A stretch of DNA of 64,000 bases from Fibrisoma limi BUZ 3 (lineage in GTDB: Bacteria > Bacteroidota > Bacteroidia > Cytophagales > Spirosomataceae): the NCBI RefSeq assembly GCF_000296815.2, contig NZ_CAIT01000005.1, forward strand, positions 558,001-622,000, read 5' to 3'. A program made the position numbers and the translations under genes. Below the pieces are notes generated by a model. That model ran no database searches and was not told the origin of the DNA. It saw only the letters and a program-made list of their open reading frames with translations. Positions 12,638 through 18,135 of the stretch are shown here, one piece after another (the first letter of the stretch is position 1; every line of letters starts with the position of its first letter).

Positions 12638-12973
12638 TTATTCATTTACATAACAACTGACCAAACGAGGAAACGATTCCCCAAAGTGAATGATCCAGGC
12701 CGAACGAATCGATGCTTGCCGGGCTTTATACGTCAATATAAAATCAACCACGTACAACTCACCCTGTGCATTGGCTCCACTAAACGTAGCGTCTTCTATC
12801 AGAACGGCCGTCGATATGGCTTCTTTCAAAATTAAGTAATTGTCAGCAGTGATTCCTAAGGCGGCCTTGAAAACACGGGCTTTATGCTTGTCGGTTATAT
12901 GCGTTTCGGACAGACAGTAGCCAACTAGTTTTTTGTCGTCTATAAAAGCTTTCTCGGCGAAAGGAAAGAGCAT
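12638..12973 (-). CDS. DUF6883-like protein
   Basis: 111 residues. The order AEKAFIDDKKLVGYCLSE, then HKARVFKAALGITADN and a C-terminal sheet (GELYVVDFILTY...AWIIHFGESFPRLVSCYV) matches my memory of DUF6883, found alone beside DUF4926 genes and at the C-terminus of polymorphic toxins. HKARVF is the most telling motif. Upstream partner of the DUF4926 gene with a short gap. What either protein does is unknown. Confidence 0.7.
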   Translation of the reverse strand: MLFPFAEKAFIDDKKLVGYCLSETHITDKHKARVFKAALGITADNYLILKEAISTAVLIEDATFSGANAQGELYVVDFILTYKARQASIRSAWIIHFGESFPRLVSCYVNE

Positions 12974-13444: not shown

Positions 13445-13471
13445 GGTCAGGTGGCATTGAGCTACCTGACC
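13445..13471 (-). terminator. Hairpin at the end of the LytTR regulator gene
   Basis: GGTCAGGT (13445-13452) pairs perfectly with ACCTGACC (13464-13471) around an 11-base loop. The stem touches the stop codon at 13471-13473. No clear T-run follows on the minus strand, so termination strength is uncertain. Confidence 0.45.
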
Positions 13472-14229
13472 TATTTGAATCGGAAGCTGTTCATGAACTC
13501 GTCCTTGTAGTTTTTGCCGAGCGGAACGATGTGCGTCCCAATGGTCATCTCGTGGTCGTTAAACACGTCGACCCGGCTGATGTTGACGGCGTAGGAGCGA
13601 TGGACACGTACCAGCCGTTTGTGGTTCAGCTTGTCAAGAACGGCCGTCAGCGGCAGGCGCAGGGCGTACTTCCTGGTGGTGGTAACAAACGTCGTGTAAA
13701 TATCCTCGGCTTCCAGAATCAGGATGTCGCTGAAATGAATCTTCACGTACTGGTAGCCCTGCTTAATAAACACATCGTCGTCGATTTGCAGAATGGTGTC
13801 GCGTTCCGGTGCGGCAGTCGGGACTTTGCCGGCGGGTAAGGAGCGCGTACTGAACGTATGCAGCGACATATCGATCGAAATACGCAGGTTGAGCAGATTA
13901 TACGGCTTGGTCATGTATGCCGCCGGATACGTTTGTTTGGCCCGTTCGAGGGTGTCCGAATCCGACAGGGCGGTCAGGTAGATAACCGGAATCGGCCGGG
14001 CGTTAGTGATGCGCCGAACCGTCTCAATGCCGTCAAACTCGCCTTTGATGTTGATGTCGCACAGCAGCAGATCTACCTGGTTACGTTCGAACAGGTCTAC
14101 TGCTTTGGTGCCATTGTTGGCGATACCGACTACGTTATAGCCCTCGGCTTCCAGGCTGTCGCTGAGGGCCATCGCCAGAATAGCCTCGTCTTCAACGATC
14201 AGGATGTTCACTTTTGTGTTCGACTCCAT
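13471..14229 (-). CDS. LytTR-family DNA-binding response regulator
   Basis: 252 residues. The receiver domain (1-125) has the acidic pair in IVEDEA, the phospho-acceptor D58 in LLLCDINIKGEFDG, the switch threonine in PVIYLTAL and the lysine in AYMTKPYN. A linker leads to a LytTR domain (about 145-250): VFIKQGYQYVKIHFSDILILEAEDIYTTF, then LVRVHRSYAVNISRVD. It would bind DNA as the output of the 7TM histidine kinase, whose gene ends 29 bases upstream. Last gene of the four-gene operon. Confidence 0.93.
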   Translation of the reverse strand: MESNTKVNILIVEDEAILAMALSDSLEAEGYNVVGIANNGTKAVDLFERNQVDLLLCDINIKGEFDGIETVRRITNARPIPVIYLTALSDSDTLERAKQTYPAAYMTKPYNLLNLRISIDMSLHTFSTRSLPAGKVPTAAPERDTILQIDDDVFIKQGYQYVKIHFSDILILEAEDIYTTFVTTTRKYALRLPLTAVLDKLNHKRLVRVHRSYAVNISRVDVFNDHEMTIGTHIVPLGKNYKDEFMNSFRFK

Positions 14230-14258
14230 GACGGGATGTACTCTATATGCGCTTGAAA

Positions 14259-16184
14259 TCAGGCCATTGCCAGTTCGCTTTCGGGAATGTGTAACTGAAA
14301 CCGGGTGCCATTATCACTCTCAATTGTAAACTCGCCACCCGTCTGCTGGCTCAGGCCCTTGATCAGGCGCTTGCCGAACGAGCCGCCCGACCGCTGCCAG
14401 TTCGATACGTCGATGCCGGGTCCGTTGTCCTGTACTTCGAGCAGGAGTCCGTCCTGTTTCCGGAGGTTAATGATCAGGACCGGCTTGTCAACCTCGCGGT
14501 AAGCGTATTTGAACGCATTGGTCAGCAATTCGTTCAGAATCAGGCCGAGTGGAATAGCCAGATCGATGTTTAGTTCATCGAAATCGCTCTGAAACCGGAA
14601 CTCAAACGAGCGCTCGCTGAAGCCGTACGCGTGGATCAGACTGGCGGTTAGTTCGCGAATATACTGACGAATATCGATGGCTGAAATCTGATCGGTTTTA
14701 TATAACTGCTGGTGAATGAGCGACATGACCTCAATGCGTTGCTGCCCCTCCTGAAACGCCCGAATGGCCTGTTCGTCGGTCAACTGGTTCGATTGCAGAC
14801 TCAGTAGACCCGAAATGATGCTGAGGTTGTTCTTGACGCGATGGTGCAGCTCCTTCATGACCATCTTCAACTGGTCAGACTGCTCCTGAATCCGTATTTT
14901 ATCTTCGGCCAGTTCGCGGGTTCGTTCGGCTACTTTTTGCTCCAGCCGGATGTTCTGGGCGACCATAAGCTGCTCGGCTTCGTCCTTGTACGTCTTGATC
15001 TTGTAGGCAATCGCGATCGAGAACAGGATAGCGTGGGCATCGCTGCTCATCAGGAGCATAGTGTGGTTCAGCCACGAATACGTCAGGATGCCGTAGATGT
15101 ACAGCGACAGGTACAGGATAGCAAAAATCGGAACGCAGTAGGCAATCAGGAACAGCAGGGCGGGTTTGTCGCCTGTCCGGTAGATCCGGGTGCCGGTGTA
15201 CAGCATAAAGGCCGCAGCCAGCGGGGTGGTGTTCTGATACAGCACCGCTATGCGGCCAAAGCCTAAAATGGCGGCTGCCAGCAGAATCAGGAAAAAGCCG
15301 AACAACAACCGAAACCCGTACCGGATGATGGGGTCAGTCTGGATTCTGATCTTCAGAAAATAATAGGCAAAGGCAAACGACAGCAGCGCCGTTACGATCG
15401 GGATGGCGTAGAACAGCCGGTCGTTGAGCCAGAACGGTATGTCGGGGAAAAGTTCGTAGAAATGGCCCGAAAAAATGGCCAGTTGCAGCGAGAATACAAA
15501 CAAATACCCACCCAGCAGCAGGTAGTCGCGCTCGCGGGTTACGACGTAGATCAGCAACTGATACAGCACAACAGCCAGCAATATGCCAAACAGCAGCCCT
15601 TCAATCACATCAGTCGGATGCGACTCCCGAATGAGGGCGTACTGCGGATAGATACTGGCCGGCAGCGATTTCCGGTCGAACCGGTTCATTCGCAGCAGGT
15701 ACGTCCGTTGCTGACCCGGCCGAAGCGGCAGACGCATAATGTCGCGGCTGGCGGGCATGTATTTTTCGGCCGTCATTGGTTGAAGGCCACCTTTGCCAAT
15801 GGGAAACACCCGGCCGTTGCTCCATTCGTAGAGGAGCACGGTGGCATAGCCCATAGTCGGCACGACCAGGTACAGCGATTCGTCGGTCTGGTTGCGCACC
15901 GTAAACCGGAACCAGTACACATTGTTGGTGTCGACGTCGATGCGGACCTGGTGGTAATCAAACGGCCGGAATGCCGACCAGTGTTTGCCAATCTGGTCGG
16001 CATGCACGCTGGAGGTGAGCATGTCGCTGTGGCCCGCTACGGGATACGACCGCCCGGGATCATTGATAACCAACGGCTCAGCCGCCCAGCCGTCAGTCAG
16101 CCTGAACAGCAGCAGACTGAAGAGGAAGCACCGGATGGCGAAGGCTGGCCGCCTGCCTGTATTGGATAAGGACATACACTGCAT
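14259..16184 (-). CDS. 7TMR-DISM sensor histidine kinase (HisKA_2 type)
   Basis: 641 residues. A signal-like start (AIRCFLFSLLLFRLTDGWAA) precedes a periplasmic 7TMR-DISMED2-like ligand domain (about 30-175; VYWFRFTVRNQTDESLYLVVP). Seven membrane helices follow (about 190-390), then a coiled coil with QKVAERTRELAEDKIRIQEQ. The HisKA_2 dimerisation helix has the phospho-histidine in ELHHRVKNNLSIISGLL, and the ATPase domain has ILNELLTNAFKYAY and DNGPGID. Its first 92 bases overlap the end of the upstream membrane-enzyme gene in another frame, which ties the two together tightly. An internal ATG at codon 4 is an alternative start. The ligand is unknown. Confidence 0.93.
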   Translation of the reverse strand: MQCMSLSNTGRRPAFAIRCFLFSLLLFRLTDGWAAEPLVINDPGRSYPVAGHSDMLTSSVHADQIGKHWSAFRPFDYHQVRIDVDTNNVYWFRFTVRNQTDESLYLVVPTMGYATVLLYEWSNGRVFPIGKGGLQPMTAEKYMPASRDIMRLPLRPGQQRTYLLRMNRFDRKSLPASIYPQYALIRESHPTDVIEGLLFGILLAVVLYQLLIYVVTRERDYLLLGGYLFVFSLQLAIFSGHFYELFPDIPFWLNDRLFYAIPIVTALLSFAFAYYFLKIRIQTDPIIRYGFRLLFGFFLILLAAAILGFGRIAVLYQNTTPLAAAFMLYTGTRIYRTGDKPALLFLIAYCVPIFAILYLSLYIYGILTYSWLNHTMLLMSSDAHAILFSIAIAYKIKTYKDEAEQLMVAQNIRLEQKVAERTRELAEDKIRIQEQSDQLKMVMKELHHRVKNNLSIISGLLSLQSNQLTDEQAIRAFQEGQQRIEVMSLIHQQLYKTDQISAIDIRQYIRELTASLIHAYGFSERSFEFRFQSDFDELNIDLAIPLGLILNELLTNAFKYAYREVDKPVLIINLRKQDGLLLEVQDNGPGIDVSNWQRSGGSFGKRLIKGLSQQTGGEFTIESDNGTRFQLHIPESELAMA

Positions 16185-16812
16185 TCAGGATAAAAACGGC
16201 AAGGGTTAACAACTGAAGAAAATGCTTGTCGGGGTATTTCAGCCAGACAAACACGCTCATCAGGGTATTGCTGATGAACTGACACCAGGCCGACAAGCCC
16301 GAAAACACGCTGCCCTCCGGTCGGCTGAGAATGTGCTGAATGTACAGCGCCGACATCACGACCGTGATCAGGTAGGCCGACGTAGCGCCCATGCTGGTGT
16401 CGTAGCCTTCCTGATAGAAGTAGTAAAACACCGGAATCCAGAACAGAAATACGGATAGCTTAATCCAGACAAAATACGGCCGAACGCCGGGGTTAACCAG
16501 TTGTTTGCTGCCGTAGCGCAGCAGCAGGGCAAAAATGAAAACATCCATGAAGAACCAGCCGCGCAGGCCCCAGACAAACAACCGGCCCATGTCGGTGAGC
16601 AGGACAAAGCCCCACACCAGTTCCCAGGCGAAGTTCGACGCTCCGGCCAGATAGGGCATTTCAACGTAGCGGTAGCGGAGGCCATTCCGGATGATGACGC
16701 CGTAGGCAATGTTCCAGAACACGGTGCCGACCAGCACAAGGCCGATCTGAAGGGGTGTGTAGTCGCAAAAGTTGATCCACTGATCGGGTGAGTAGGTACA
16801 GGGTGGTTTCAT
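16093..16812 (-). CDS. Seven-helix membrane protein resembling transmembrane terpene cyclases
   Basis: 239 residues from ATG 16812; this start overlaps the upstream oxygenase stop by four bases. About seven hydrophobic helices. The segment EMPYLAGASNFAWELVWGF (about 51-69) with N60, W63 and E64, followed by FFMDVFIFALLLRYG (D90, R99), looks like the conserved core of Pyr4/PaxB-type transmembrane cyclases, where the glutamate protonates a terpenoid epoxide or olefin. I do not see the second catalytic acid with certainty, so this could be a non-cyclase relative. Neighbours: an MpaB-like oxygenase upstream, a 7TM histidine kinase overlapping downstream. Confidence 0.65.
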   Translation of the reverse strand: MKPPCTYSPDQWINFCDYTPLQIGLVLVGTVFWNIAYGVIIRNGLRYRYVEMPYLAGASNFAWELVWGFVLLTDMGRLFVWGLRGWFFMDVFIFALLLRYGSKQLVNPGVRPYFVWIKLSVFLFWIPVFYYFYQEGYDTSMGATSAYLITVVMSALYIQHILSRPEGSVFSGLSAWCQFISNTLMSVFVWLKYPDKHFLQLLTLAVFILNAVYVLIQYRQAASLRHPVLPLQSAAVQAD

Positions 16813-17972
16813 CGGGTTTCGTTCCGTTGGCGAAGGGCTTCGGCCCCTTCGGTGAGGTAGGTTGGGACGTAGAACTGAGCGTGCTTGAAGCCGTTGAACA
16901 CCGTAGTGGTGTTCTGTAGAAAATCGACAGACATTTTGCCGAGCAGCCACCGCAACACAGGCATGAGCGTTTCGGCCCGCTGTAGTCCCGAACTCAGCAG
17001 CTTGATGCGGTTGGCTACCCGGCGCTGGTGCACCAAAGGTACCTGAGCGATGCCAAGCACATCACCAACGTGGTTGCCACAATAGTAGCGGATCAGTACG
17101 GGCACCGCCGGTTTGAGGAGCACGCCCACTTTCCGGCCCATATCTTCCGCGAGTGCCGCGGCCAGTTGAACGCCCCAGGGCGAAGGGGCCAGTTGCTGGT
17201 CGAAGATCGTGTACCCTAATTGCAGGGCTTCGTCGTAATTGGGGGCCATGAGCCGTTCGTCGAGACCGAGCCAGTGACCCACTACGTTCCAGCAGTGGAT
17301 GTACGCGTCTTTCTGTTCCCGACTGAGCTTGTAGCCACTCATCTCAAGCCCTTCGAGCACGAGCGCGCTGAACGACAGCAACGTACCGGCCATATCCTCC
17401 TGATTGATCGGAGCCCCGTGGTGCTGGTGGTCCCACTGGCGCTGGGTAATCAGCAGGTGCCGGATCGACGCGTGAATCAGCCGGACTTTCTGGGTGGTTA
17501 GGATACCCCGGCCACCTGGCGACAGTCCGCCCGGCTCCATGGCGTAAATGACAAACTGAGCCGTTTCCATCAGCCGCCGGACCAGATTCGGCACCCCGTC
17601 GCGGGCTGTGAGCAACCCCGTTTCGTAGAGCACCTTCGAGCCGTTGGCGCAGGAATAAGCCATGGGCAACGACCGGAAGTTCAGCAGCATCGCAATCGTA
17701 ACGGCGTTGGTGGCAAACACCCGCTGGGCCGTGCGGATGGCGTCCGGATTGGCCCAGGCGGGTGGAGGTGCTGTTGCTTCGAGGTACTGGTCCAGTCGTT
17801 CGCCAAGGGGACCAGGAAGCAGCCTCCCCCGGATGTCGTAGTTGCGGGTCAGGGTTTGCAGCAGACGGTTAGCCGCCTGGATGTCATGGTCACGTACCAG
17901 ATCAGCGATCAGGGCATCGGCCACGGCATCCTGCTGCATTCGAAAAGGGGAAAGATCGATGGCAGGAAGCAT
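16809..17972 (-). CDS. Oxygenase MpaB family protein (DUF2236)
   Basis: 387 residues, helical, with the DUF2236 signature: QKVRLIHASIRHLL (R164, H167, R171), then GAPINQEDMAGTLLSFSALVLEGLE and YIHCWNVVGHWLGLDERLMAP. The family includes the haem-dependent rubber oxygenase Lcp and the fungal MpaB, which cleaves a farnesyl side chain; both act on isoprenoid chains. No signal peptide is seen, so it should be cytosolic or membrane-associated through its hydrophobic C-terminal part. First gene of an operon with a terpene-cyclase-like membrane protein and a two-component system; the next gene overlaps by four bases. The substrate is not known, but a prenyl lipid or quinone is a reasonable guess. Confidence 0.85.
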   Translation of the reverse strand: MLPAIDLSPFRMQQDAVADALIADLVRDHDIQAANRLLQTLTRNYDIRGRLLPGPLGERLDQYLEATAPPPAWANPDAIRTAQRVFATNAVTIAMLLNFRSLPMAYSCANGSKVLYETGLLTARDGVPNLVRRLMETAQFVIYAMEPGGLSPGGRGILTTQKVRLIHASIRHLLITQRQWDHQHHGAPINQEDMAGTLLSFSALVLEGLEMSGYKLSREQKDAYIHCWNVVGHWLGLDERLMAPNYDEALQLGYTIFDQQLAPSPWGVQLAAALAEDMGRKVGVLLKPAVPVLIRYYCGNHVGDVLGIAQVPLVHQRRVANRIKLLSSGLQRAETLMPVLRWLLGKMSVDFLQNTTTVFNGFKHAQFYVPTYLTEGAEALRQRNETR

Positions 17973-18041
17973 TGGGTTACAAGGAACGGTTGAGGTAGTC
18001 AGTGCGGCTATAAATCTACCAAAAATCGAATTGGAATCGAT

Positions 18042-18085
18042 AAAAAACAGCCGGGGACGATGGTCGCCCCCGACTGGCCCGGCTG
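18042..18085 (-). terminator. Rho-independent terminator of the TonB-domain gene
   Basis: On the minus strand CAGCCGGG (18085-18078) pairs with CCCGGCTG (18055-18048) and is followed at once by six T residues (18047-18042). A second smaller hairpin sits in the loop. It lies about 50 bases after the stop of the TonB C-terminal domain gene and insulates the oxygenase operon from it. Confidence 0.8.
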
Positions 18086-18135
18086 TAGCAGCGGGCGTTC
18101 ATCGTAGTAGTTGGACAAGCGGTTTAGTTTGTTGA

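Follow-up and report, generated by a model that had tools for sequence, protein, structure and literature searches.

What does a sensor kinase read when its gene stands in one tight row with the genes of two presumed isoprenoid- or lipid-modifying enzymes? The question is raised by a stretch of 64,000 nucleotides from Fibrisoma limi BUZ 3 (contig NZ_CAIT01000005.1, positions 558,001 to 622,000; hereafter the window), in which four genes follow one another on the minus strand. They encode a homologue of the MpaB/Lcp-type (DUF2236) oxygenases (OX, 387 amino acids, positions 16809..17972; PF09995, MPAB_Lcp_cat, 9e-20), a homologue of the Pyr4-type transmembrane terpene cyclases (TC, 239 amino acids, 16093..16812; PF25129, Pyr4-TMTC, 6.5e-14), a sensor kinase (HK, 641 amino acids, 14259..16184) and a response regulator (RR, 252 amino acids, 13471..14229). 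HK combines a DISMED2 ectodomain (1e-9) with 7TMR-DISM_7TM (8.3e-31), HisKA_2 (3.1e-26) and HATPase_c (7.5e-12), as is characteristic of a 7TMR-DISM histidine kinase, and RR combines REC (PF00072, 8.4e-21) with LytTR (PF04397, 4.8e-15), as in LytTR response regulators. OX and TC overlap by 4 base pairs (bp), TC and HK by 92 bp when HK is counted from its first ATG, and 29 bp separate HK from RR, which suggests that the four genes form a single transcription unit. The first-pass annotation of the window had described this arrangement and these families; the open reading frames confirm the former and Pfam bears out the latter. It had also inferred that the two enzymes feed the sensor and that the four genes belong together.

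Comparison with other genomes demonstrates that the conserved unit consists of oxidase, TC and transducer, and that the four-gene set of the window is one version of this wider module. Thirty-two distinct OX-TC loci were found in Bacteroidota, Acidobacteriota, Gemmatimonadota, Ignavibacteriota and Leptospiraceae; they pool the family, phylum and acidobacterial surveys with 20 loci found with TCs of the window's own clade, duplicates being counted once (L042=L022, L044=L024, L087=L054, L088=L052 and L129=L046). Genes at these fetched loci (L numbers) come from a longest-frame caller that is weak in GC-rich loci (L048, L125). In all 28 loci that were scanned, the gene adjoining the pair resembles a signal transducer or a STAND-like ATPase, with seven kinds represented; L035, L050, L103 and L125 lie outside this set, owing to a contig end, to a gene lying in between or to ambiguous gene calls. 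Pfam matches in the adjoining genes total 14 for HATPase_c, nine for AAA_16, eight for HisKA, seven each for 7TMR-DISM and HisKA_2, five each for SpoIIE and Pkinase, and four each for Guanylate_cyc and GAF, several domains occurring in one protein. The kind of transducer at each locus was assigned by BLAST to nine representatives and by single scans; the AC representative, L060, was typed by BLAST to a stretch of L086 that Pfam calls Guanylate_cyc, L056 and L058 carry AAA_16 with no recognised output domain (TPR in one of them), and the kinases of L051, L053 and G157, which are split between frames, were left so. At 25 OX-TC loci the oxidase, TC and transducer genes are co-directional throughout, and the transducer lies less than 100 bp from TC in 24 and overlaps it in 18.

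One of these loci is that of Fibrisoma montanum, where all four genes are kept with 90-96% protein identity and identical 4- and 92-bp overlaps. Beyond it the regulator is lost from view: when the fetched loci were searched by tblastn with the LytTR part, no LytTR profile being run, only the window and F. montanum matched among OX-TC loci. The transducer, too, is frequently something other than a kinase. The notion of one conserved set of four genes is therefore rejected. A neighbourhood survey of the kind that the first-pass annotation had proposed found oxidase, TC and transducer conserved and the LytTR context narrow, and the idea of an enzyme pair that feeds a sensor gains comparative support from homologues linked in several phyla to changing transducers, but not in the form of the four-gene set.

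Could such linkage arise by chance? Downstream of 20 unlinked OX paralogues of about 350 amino acids, no transducer family appears among 25 of 44 families listed; eight of these control genes encode MnmE, 17 are on the same strand and several are short open reading frames that are perhaps not genes. Genes before OX at 23 OX-TC loci gave four matches to HATPase_c, one to SpoIIE and one to REC (25 of 42 families listed), and the window genome, of 7.63 Mb, contains 130 matches to HATPase_c and 14 to 7TMR-DISM. On the TC tree the transducer kind (seven kinds) needs eight changes and the oxidase kind one (37 labelled rows, all within the larger clade described below), one of the eight being weak, since L057, labelled DISM, has only its sensor part on the contig. 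With eight such changes, inheritance of one neighbourhood does not by itself account for the linkage, and a chance neighbourhood is rejected by the two controls together with this re-pairing. The window genome has three OX genes, two of which adjoin a 7TMR-DISM kinase; that 7TMR-DISM proteins always stand beside such enzymes was likewise rejected, because 2 of the 14 in this genome adjoin OX, three of the others having been inspected by eye. Elsewhere in the same genome (L122, G000:C6:1346000-1360000) a 7TMR-DISM kinase lies opposite genes that by eye resemble a patatin-type lipase and a metallo-hydrolase, possibly a further lipid link.

At the level of the family, TC occurs in 21 of 200 genomes. 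Its surroundings there are OX-TC-transducer in nine (own included), a flavoenzyme named FAO followed by TC and then a HisKA-type kinase in another nine, a different flavoenzyme in two and neither in one. FAO, which replaces OX in its nine genomes, is weakly like HpnE and the carotene desaturases. The other flavoenzyme follows TC in L035, where a 7TMR-DISM cyclase comes next and OX lies 0.8 kb upstream, and in L039, where it stands at the contig end. The phylum survey (395 genomes) found TC in 24, comprising the window's own, four with OX (one cut by a contig end) and a rest that includes three TCs with kinases or a cyclase and no recognised oxidase, and one with a PAS kinase. In 297 genomes from the phylum of an acidobacterial metagenome-assembled genome, TC-like genes occur in six, with OX alongside in three. 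At the loci found with own-clade TCs OX adjoins TC in 20 of 20, a figure that is biased, these loci having been found by similarity to the window clade. The TCs of L086, L090 and L094 have a cyclase or kinases for neighbours, and no oxidase was recognised next to them. A tree of 53 TCs separates 43 from ten others (split support 100/100); the members listed for the separate clade (L091-L093, L096-L102 and L041) mostly have no recognised oxidase or transducer alongside.

The two enzymes themselves keep some of the residues known from their families. The closest solved relative of OX is the rubber oxygenase Lcp (5o1m, 8.9e-30; 5o1l, 1.2e-29; phmmer, residues 15-329). Arg164, Thr168 and His198, crucial residues near the haem of Lcp according to PMC5522427, align with R133, T137 and H167 of OX and are invariant in 21 of 21 aligned homologues, so that the haem-site Arg, Thr and His of the MpaB/Lcp (DUF2236) proteins are present. 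A third OX class, the one of about 350 amino acids, is common in the family, and in 8 of the 20 loci sampled its gene precedes MnmE (L118, L130-L149). TC scores 52.6 bits against PF25129, the profile of the Pyr4-like transmembrane terpene cyclases (TMTCs), for which the curated cut-off is 27. Its E64, which we take to occupy the catalytic acidic position of Pyr4-like TMTCs, is kept in 20 of 20 (alignment A1) and 20 of 21 (A4) homologues, neither alignment containing a fungal sequence; TC also keeps D90 and has a conserved Trp-Glu. An acidic residue starts catalysis in Pyr4-like TMTCs (PMC13307353), and in the aligned homologues E64 would provide one. Tandem TC copies adjoin OX at L046, L048, L050 and L060. 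The sole exception at E64 is one of the two copies in L060, in which D90 is lost as well, hinting at a putative TC heterodimer. Cyclase activity of TC is predicted from family membership.

The sensor parts of the transducers fall into several groups. The sensor region of HK groups with those of five other OX-TC loci (support 89/81), and in the same DISM tree the loci in which OX is fused to DUF5995, treated below, form a group of their own (100/99) with both kinase and cyclase outputs; the tree gives no clear support to one clade of both sorts of DISM sensor. In membrane transducers other than DISM the N-terminus forms a compact region of some 190 residues with no Pfam name, mostly with four to eight transmembrane-like segments (crude hydropathy scan), and the six-helix model of this region is poor (predicted local distance difference test score, pLDDT, 62). 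Trimmed profile comparison yields a first sensor family common to FAO-TC and OX-TC kinases (probability 91, E 1.3e-6, 132 columns) and a second, unrelated one common to HisKA_2 kinases and SpoIIE phosphatases (probability 95, E 5.5e-8, 136 columns), whereas none of ten control kinases exceeded a probability of 4.9. A sensor common to all non-DISM transducers was dropped because the trimmed families do not match each other and an earlier link (probability 28) vanished. Genome searches with both profiles are largely circular: the first, in 200 genomes, gave 14 close matches, all abutting TC, of which 11 are input rows and three are new (G033, G165 and G157), weaker matches in nine genomes lying elsewhere, and the second, in 395 genomes, gave one strong match, itself an input row, and weaker ones in 23 genomes.

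The explanation that we favour, at a probability somewhat below one half (about 0.47), is that the adjoining transducer reads a ligand made by OX and TC, namely an isoprenoid or lipid that the pair has oxidised and cyclised. OX, presumably with haem b and O2 as in Lcp, would oxidise an isoprenoid or another unsaturated lipid already in the cell, a step that in some relatives a flavoenzyme would perform instead, and TC would convert the oxidised chain, by analogy to Pyr4 through an acid-started cyclisation. In the window the 7TMR-DISM kinase would bind, or be gated by, the product and pass phosphate to the LytTR regulator, which would change transcription; in relatives the output of the pair would go to SpoIIE phosphatases, Ser/Thr kinase-AAA-GAF proteins, STAND-like ATPases or nucleotide cyclases. 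The product could act within the producing cell or on other cells. If OX or FAO together with TC supply what the transducer senses, enzymes that stay the same while the outputs change are to be expected. Besides OX or FAO, TC and the transducers, no family occurs in more than four of 35 loci, no prenyl-gene profile having been run, and a housekeeping isoprenoid or lipid is therefore the likely substrate. In known pathways an epoxidising oxidase comes together with a Pyr4-like cyclase (PMC13307353), which makes oxidation followed by cyclisation the natural guess.

Several observations weigh against such a ligand-making pair. Glu148 and Lys167, which we assume to be functionally relevant in Lcp, are replaced in OX by G111 and E136 (pairwise alignment), and OX does not have these two residues of a rubber-cleaving Lcp. 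A second, C-terminal acidic residue is presumably also a feature of Pyr4-like TMTCs; it is Asp in 17 of 20 (A1) and 16 of 21 (A4) rows, and the window TC carries N210. Of the aligned TCs, those with Asn at this position are the ones from the window, from F. montanum and from Emticicia and two from Algoriphagus, all others having Asp, and among the TCs of the DISM clade Asn replaces Asp in five of six. The TC model, built from 21 sequences, has seven helices (pLDDT 89.8; predicted template modelling score, pTM, 0.85), and its nearest solved folds are the KDEL receptor and SWEET, the first three having E 0.011-0.017 and TM-scores of 0.51-0.61; the structure search returned no solved fold at E 0.001 or better, and no solved relative of TC was found by sequence. 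In the comparison with viral models the top hits are PQ-loop proteins (E 0.0036), and no hit there had an E of 0.001 or below. Because the model is nearest to receptors and carriers, a non-catalytic role of TC is possible. In the phylum survey, 15 of the 24 TCs have no oxidase or transducer recognised alongside, partners having been sought by BLAST only, and in the separate clade of ten L098 adjoins a PAS kinase, the others having no recognised transducer. Finally, there are at least three unrelated sensor kinds (7TMR-DISM and the two multi-helix families), and the giant kinase, STAND-like and cyclase transducers have 0-4 transmembrane-like segments in the hydropathy scan, so that one ligand class is not proven.

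Part of this evidence would suit the chief competing explanation, in which the receptor is the OX-TC pair itself, made up of a sensor subunit with haem or flavin and a seven-helix membrane subunit, which bind O2, quinone or lipid and gate the transducer by contact, with no product released. The resemblance of TC to the KDEL receptor, SWEET and PQ-loop models is in keeping with it, N210 may mean that catalysis has been lost in the window clade, a flavoenzyme can replace OX while TC stays, and the transducers with few transmembrane-like segments perhaps receive their input from the membrane pair. However, E64 and the residues of the haem site are almost invariant, many transducers have a membrane sensor domain of their own, and the DUF5995 fusions pair OX with transducers with no TC in the fetched stretches. 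We consider a receptor of this type rather unlikely, though it deserves a serious hearing.

Ordinary local regulation, in which the kinase and regulator merely control two neighbouring metabolic genes, has the textbook rule in its favour that two-component genes often adjoin the genes they control, and LytTR, a DNA-binding output, fits it in the window taken alone. The other copies, however, carry SpoIIE, Ser/Thr kinase, STAND-like and cyclase proteins, none of which is a local regulator of transcription, and this makes the explanation quite unlikely. It is more doubtful still that some versions are quinone sensors, in which OX or the flavoenzyme and TC alter the menaquinone prenyl tail and a RegB-like domain reads it: the RegB model NF045988 matches the sensor region of the L026 kinase in register (3.9e-4) and that of L040 (0.027), and GG-x-x-[TSA]-P in four of five HKb kinases resembles the GGXXNPF motif of RegB (PMC10525716), but the Asn and Phe of that motif are absent, the sensor regions of L029, L027, L047 and L061 have no RegB match and the window kinase has another sensor type, and a putative quinone ligand is only a lead.

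A second class of OX in the family, fused to DUF5995, extends the link between oxygenase and transducer to a different setting. It was recognised with the OX profile in open frames of 657-742 or 1676-1705 amino acids (17 listed), and nine of the 17 loci were fetched. The DUF5995 part is present in all nine (weak in L113), and so is a transducer. The gene directly after encodes a 7TMR-DISM kinase at six loci and a 7TMR-DISM cyclase at two, giving 7TMR-DISM at eight of nine loci, and one kinase-AAA-GAF-cyclase lies two genes on. No TC occurs within the fetched stretches. Eight of the nine loci contain a caspase-like domain, L111 being outside the test, and two of nine a gasdermin (L109 and L116). 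At L109, in the window's own genome (G000:C9:1734000-1750000), a protein of 1675 amino acids with caspase, GDSL lipase, OX and DUF5995 domains comes after a gasdermin (PADLOC bGSDM, 4.2e-70) and overlaps a 7TMR-DISM kinase by 4 bp; by its domains this would be a gasdermin system that includes an oxygenase and a receptor of its own. LytTR regulators lie on the opposite strand near the OX-DUF5995 and 7TMR-DISM cyclase genes of L111 and L120. The row at L113 (G166:C1:8008000-8024000) consists of a caspase-nSTAND1 protein, OX-DUF5995, a cyclopropane-synthase-like methyltransferase and a Ser/Thr kinase-AAA-GAF-cyclase. By analogy to oxylipins, oxygenases of the MpaB/Lcp type with TC or DUF5995 might turn isoprenoids or fatty chains of the membrane into oxidised lipid mediators, to be read by membrane receptors whose outputs are interchangeable; in the version with caspase, lipase, OX-DUF5995 and gasdermin, the substrate would be released by the lipase, and cells in programmed death would give off the product as an alarm. 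Such a common logic seems to us unlikely.

In the window itself, the intergenic stretch upstream of OX (17973..18135, minus strand) is the presumed promoter region. Aligned with the F. montanum locus L022 it is mostly alike, and the search of this alignment for regulator sites identified none, the similarity being general. Directly downstream of the operon a DUF6883 protein (12638-12973; Pfam 3.1e-26) has no match in the F. montanum stretch. Gasdermin, caspase and DUF5995 were sought with Pfam in seven window proteins and found in none, and PADLOC gave nothing for OX and TC.

If the pair supplies the ligand, it offers a first handle on what the 7TMR-DISM receptors and two unannotated multi-helix sensors detect. 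Isoprenoid chemistry would enter bacterial signalling, and bacterial Pyr4-like proteins that lack evident biosynthetic clusters would be accounted for. Through the connection of the oxygenase to caspase/gasdermin operons, a possible lipid arm of cell death in bacteria becomes directly testable in environmental Cytophagales.

How does the module relate to known systems? Bacterial meroterpenoid clusters contain the Pyr4-like TMTCs XiaH, TylF, GroF and ZigF, and the survey in the same article kept 264 of 1107 bacterial sequences by their terpenoid-gene neighbours (PMC13307353), a filter that likely drops OX-TC loci. With these TMTCs the module shares the Pfam family, the conserved Glu and an oxidase encoded alongside; it differs in that the partner is an MpaB/Lcp-type oxygenase or an HpnE-like flavoenzyme, not a flavin-dependent monooxygenase or P450, and in that a signal transducer is included. 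Like Lcp and MpaB, OX has the haem-site Arg, Thr and His, whereas Glu148 and Lys167 are not kept and signalling genes are linked. As regards the gasdermin-caspase operons (bGSDM), the window genome has a DUF5995-fused OX paralogue and a like 7TMR-DISM kinase in such an operon, whereas the window locus has TC. In quorum systems of the CqsA/CqsS type a signal synthase is encoded beside its receptor kinase. The window locus is similar in that an enzyme gene adjoins a membrane kinase and a regulator, and adjacency of enzyme and transducer is seen at the OX-TC loci, the enzymes being a putative signal synthase; it is different in its enzymes, in its two-enzyme input and in a transducer interchangeable with phosphatases, cyclases and STAND-like ATPases. 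No description of the oxidase-TC-transducer module, of its interchangeable outputs or of the link between OX-DUF5995 and caspase/gasdermin operons was found among the openly licensed PMC papers searched. The families of the parts are already known; their union into one module is apparently new, and is akin to those systems in which ligand-making enzymes are encoded beside the receptor.

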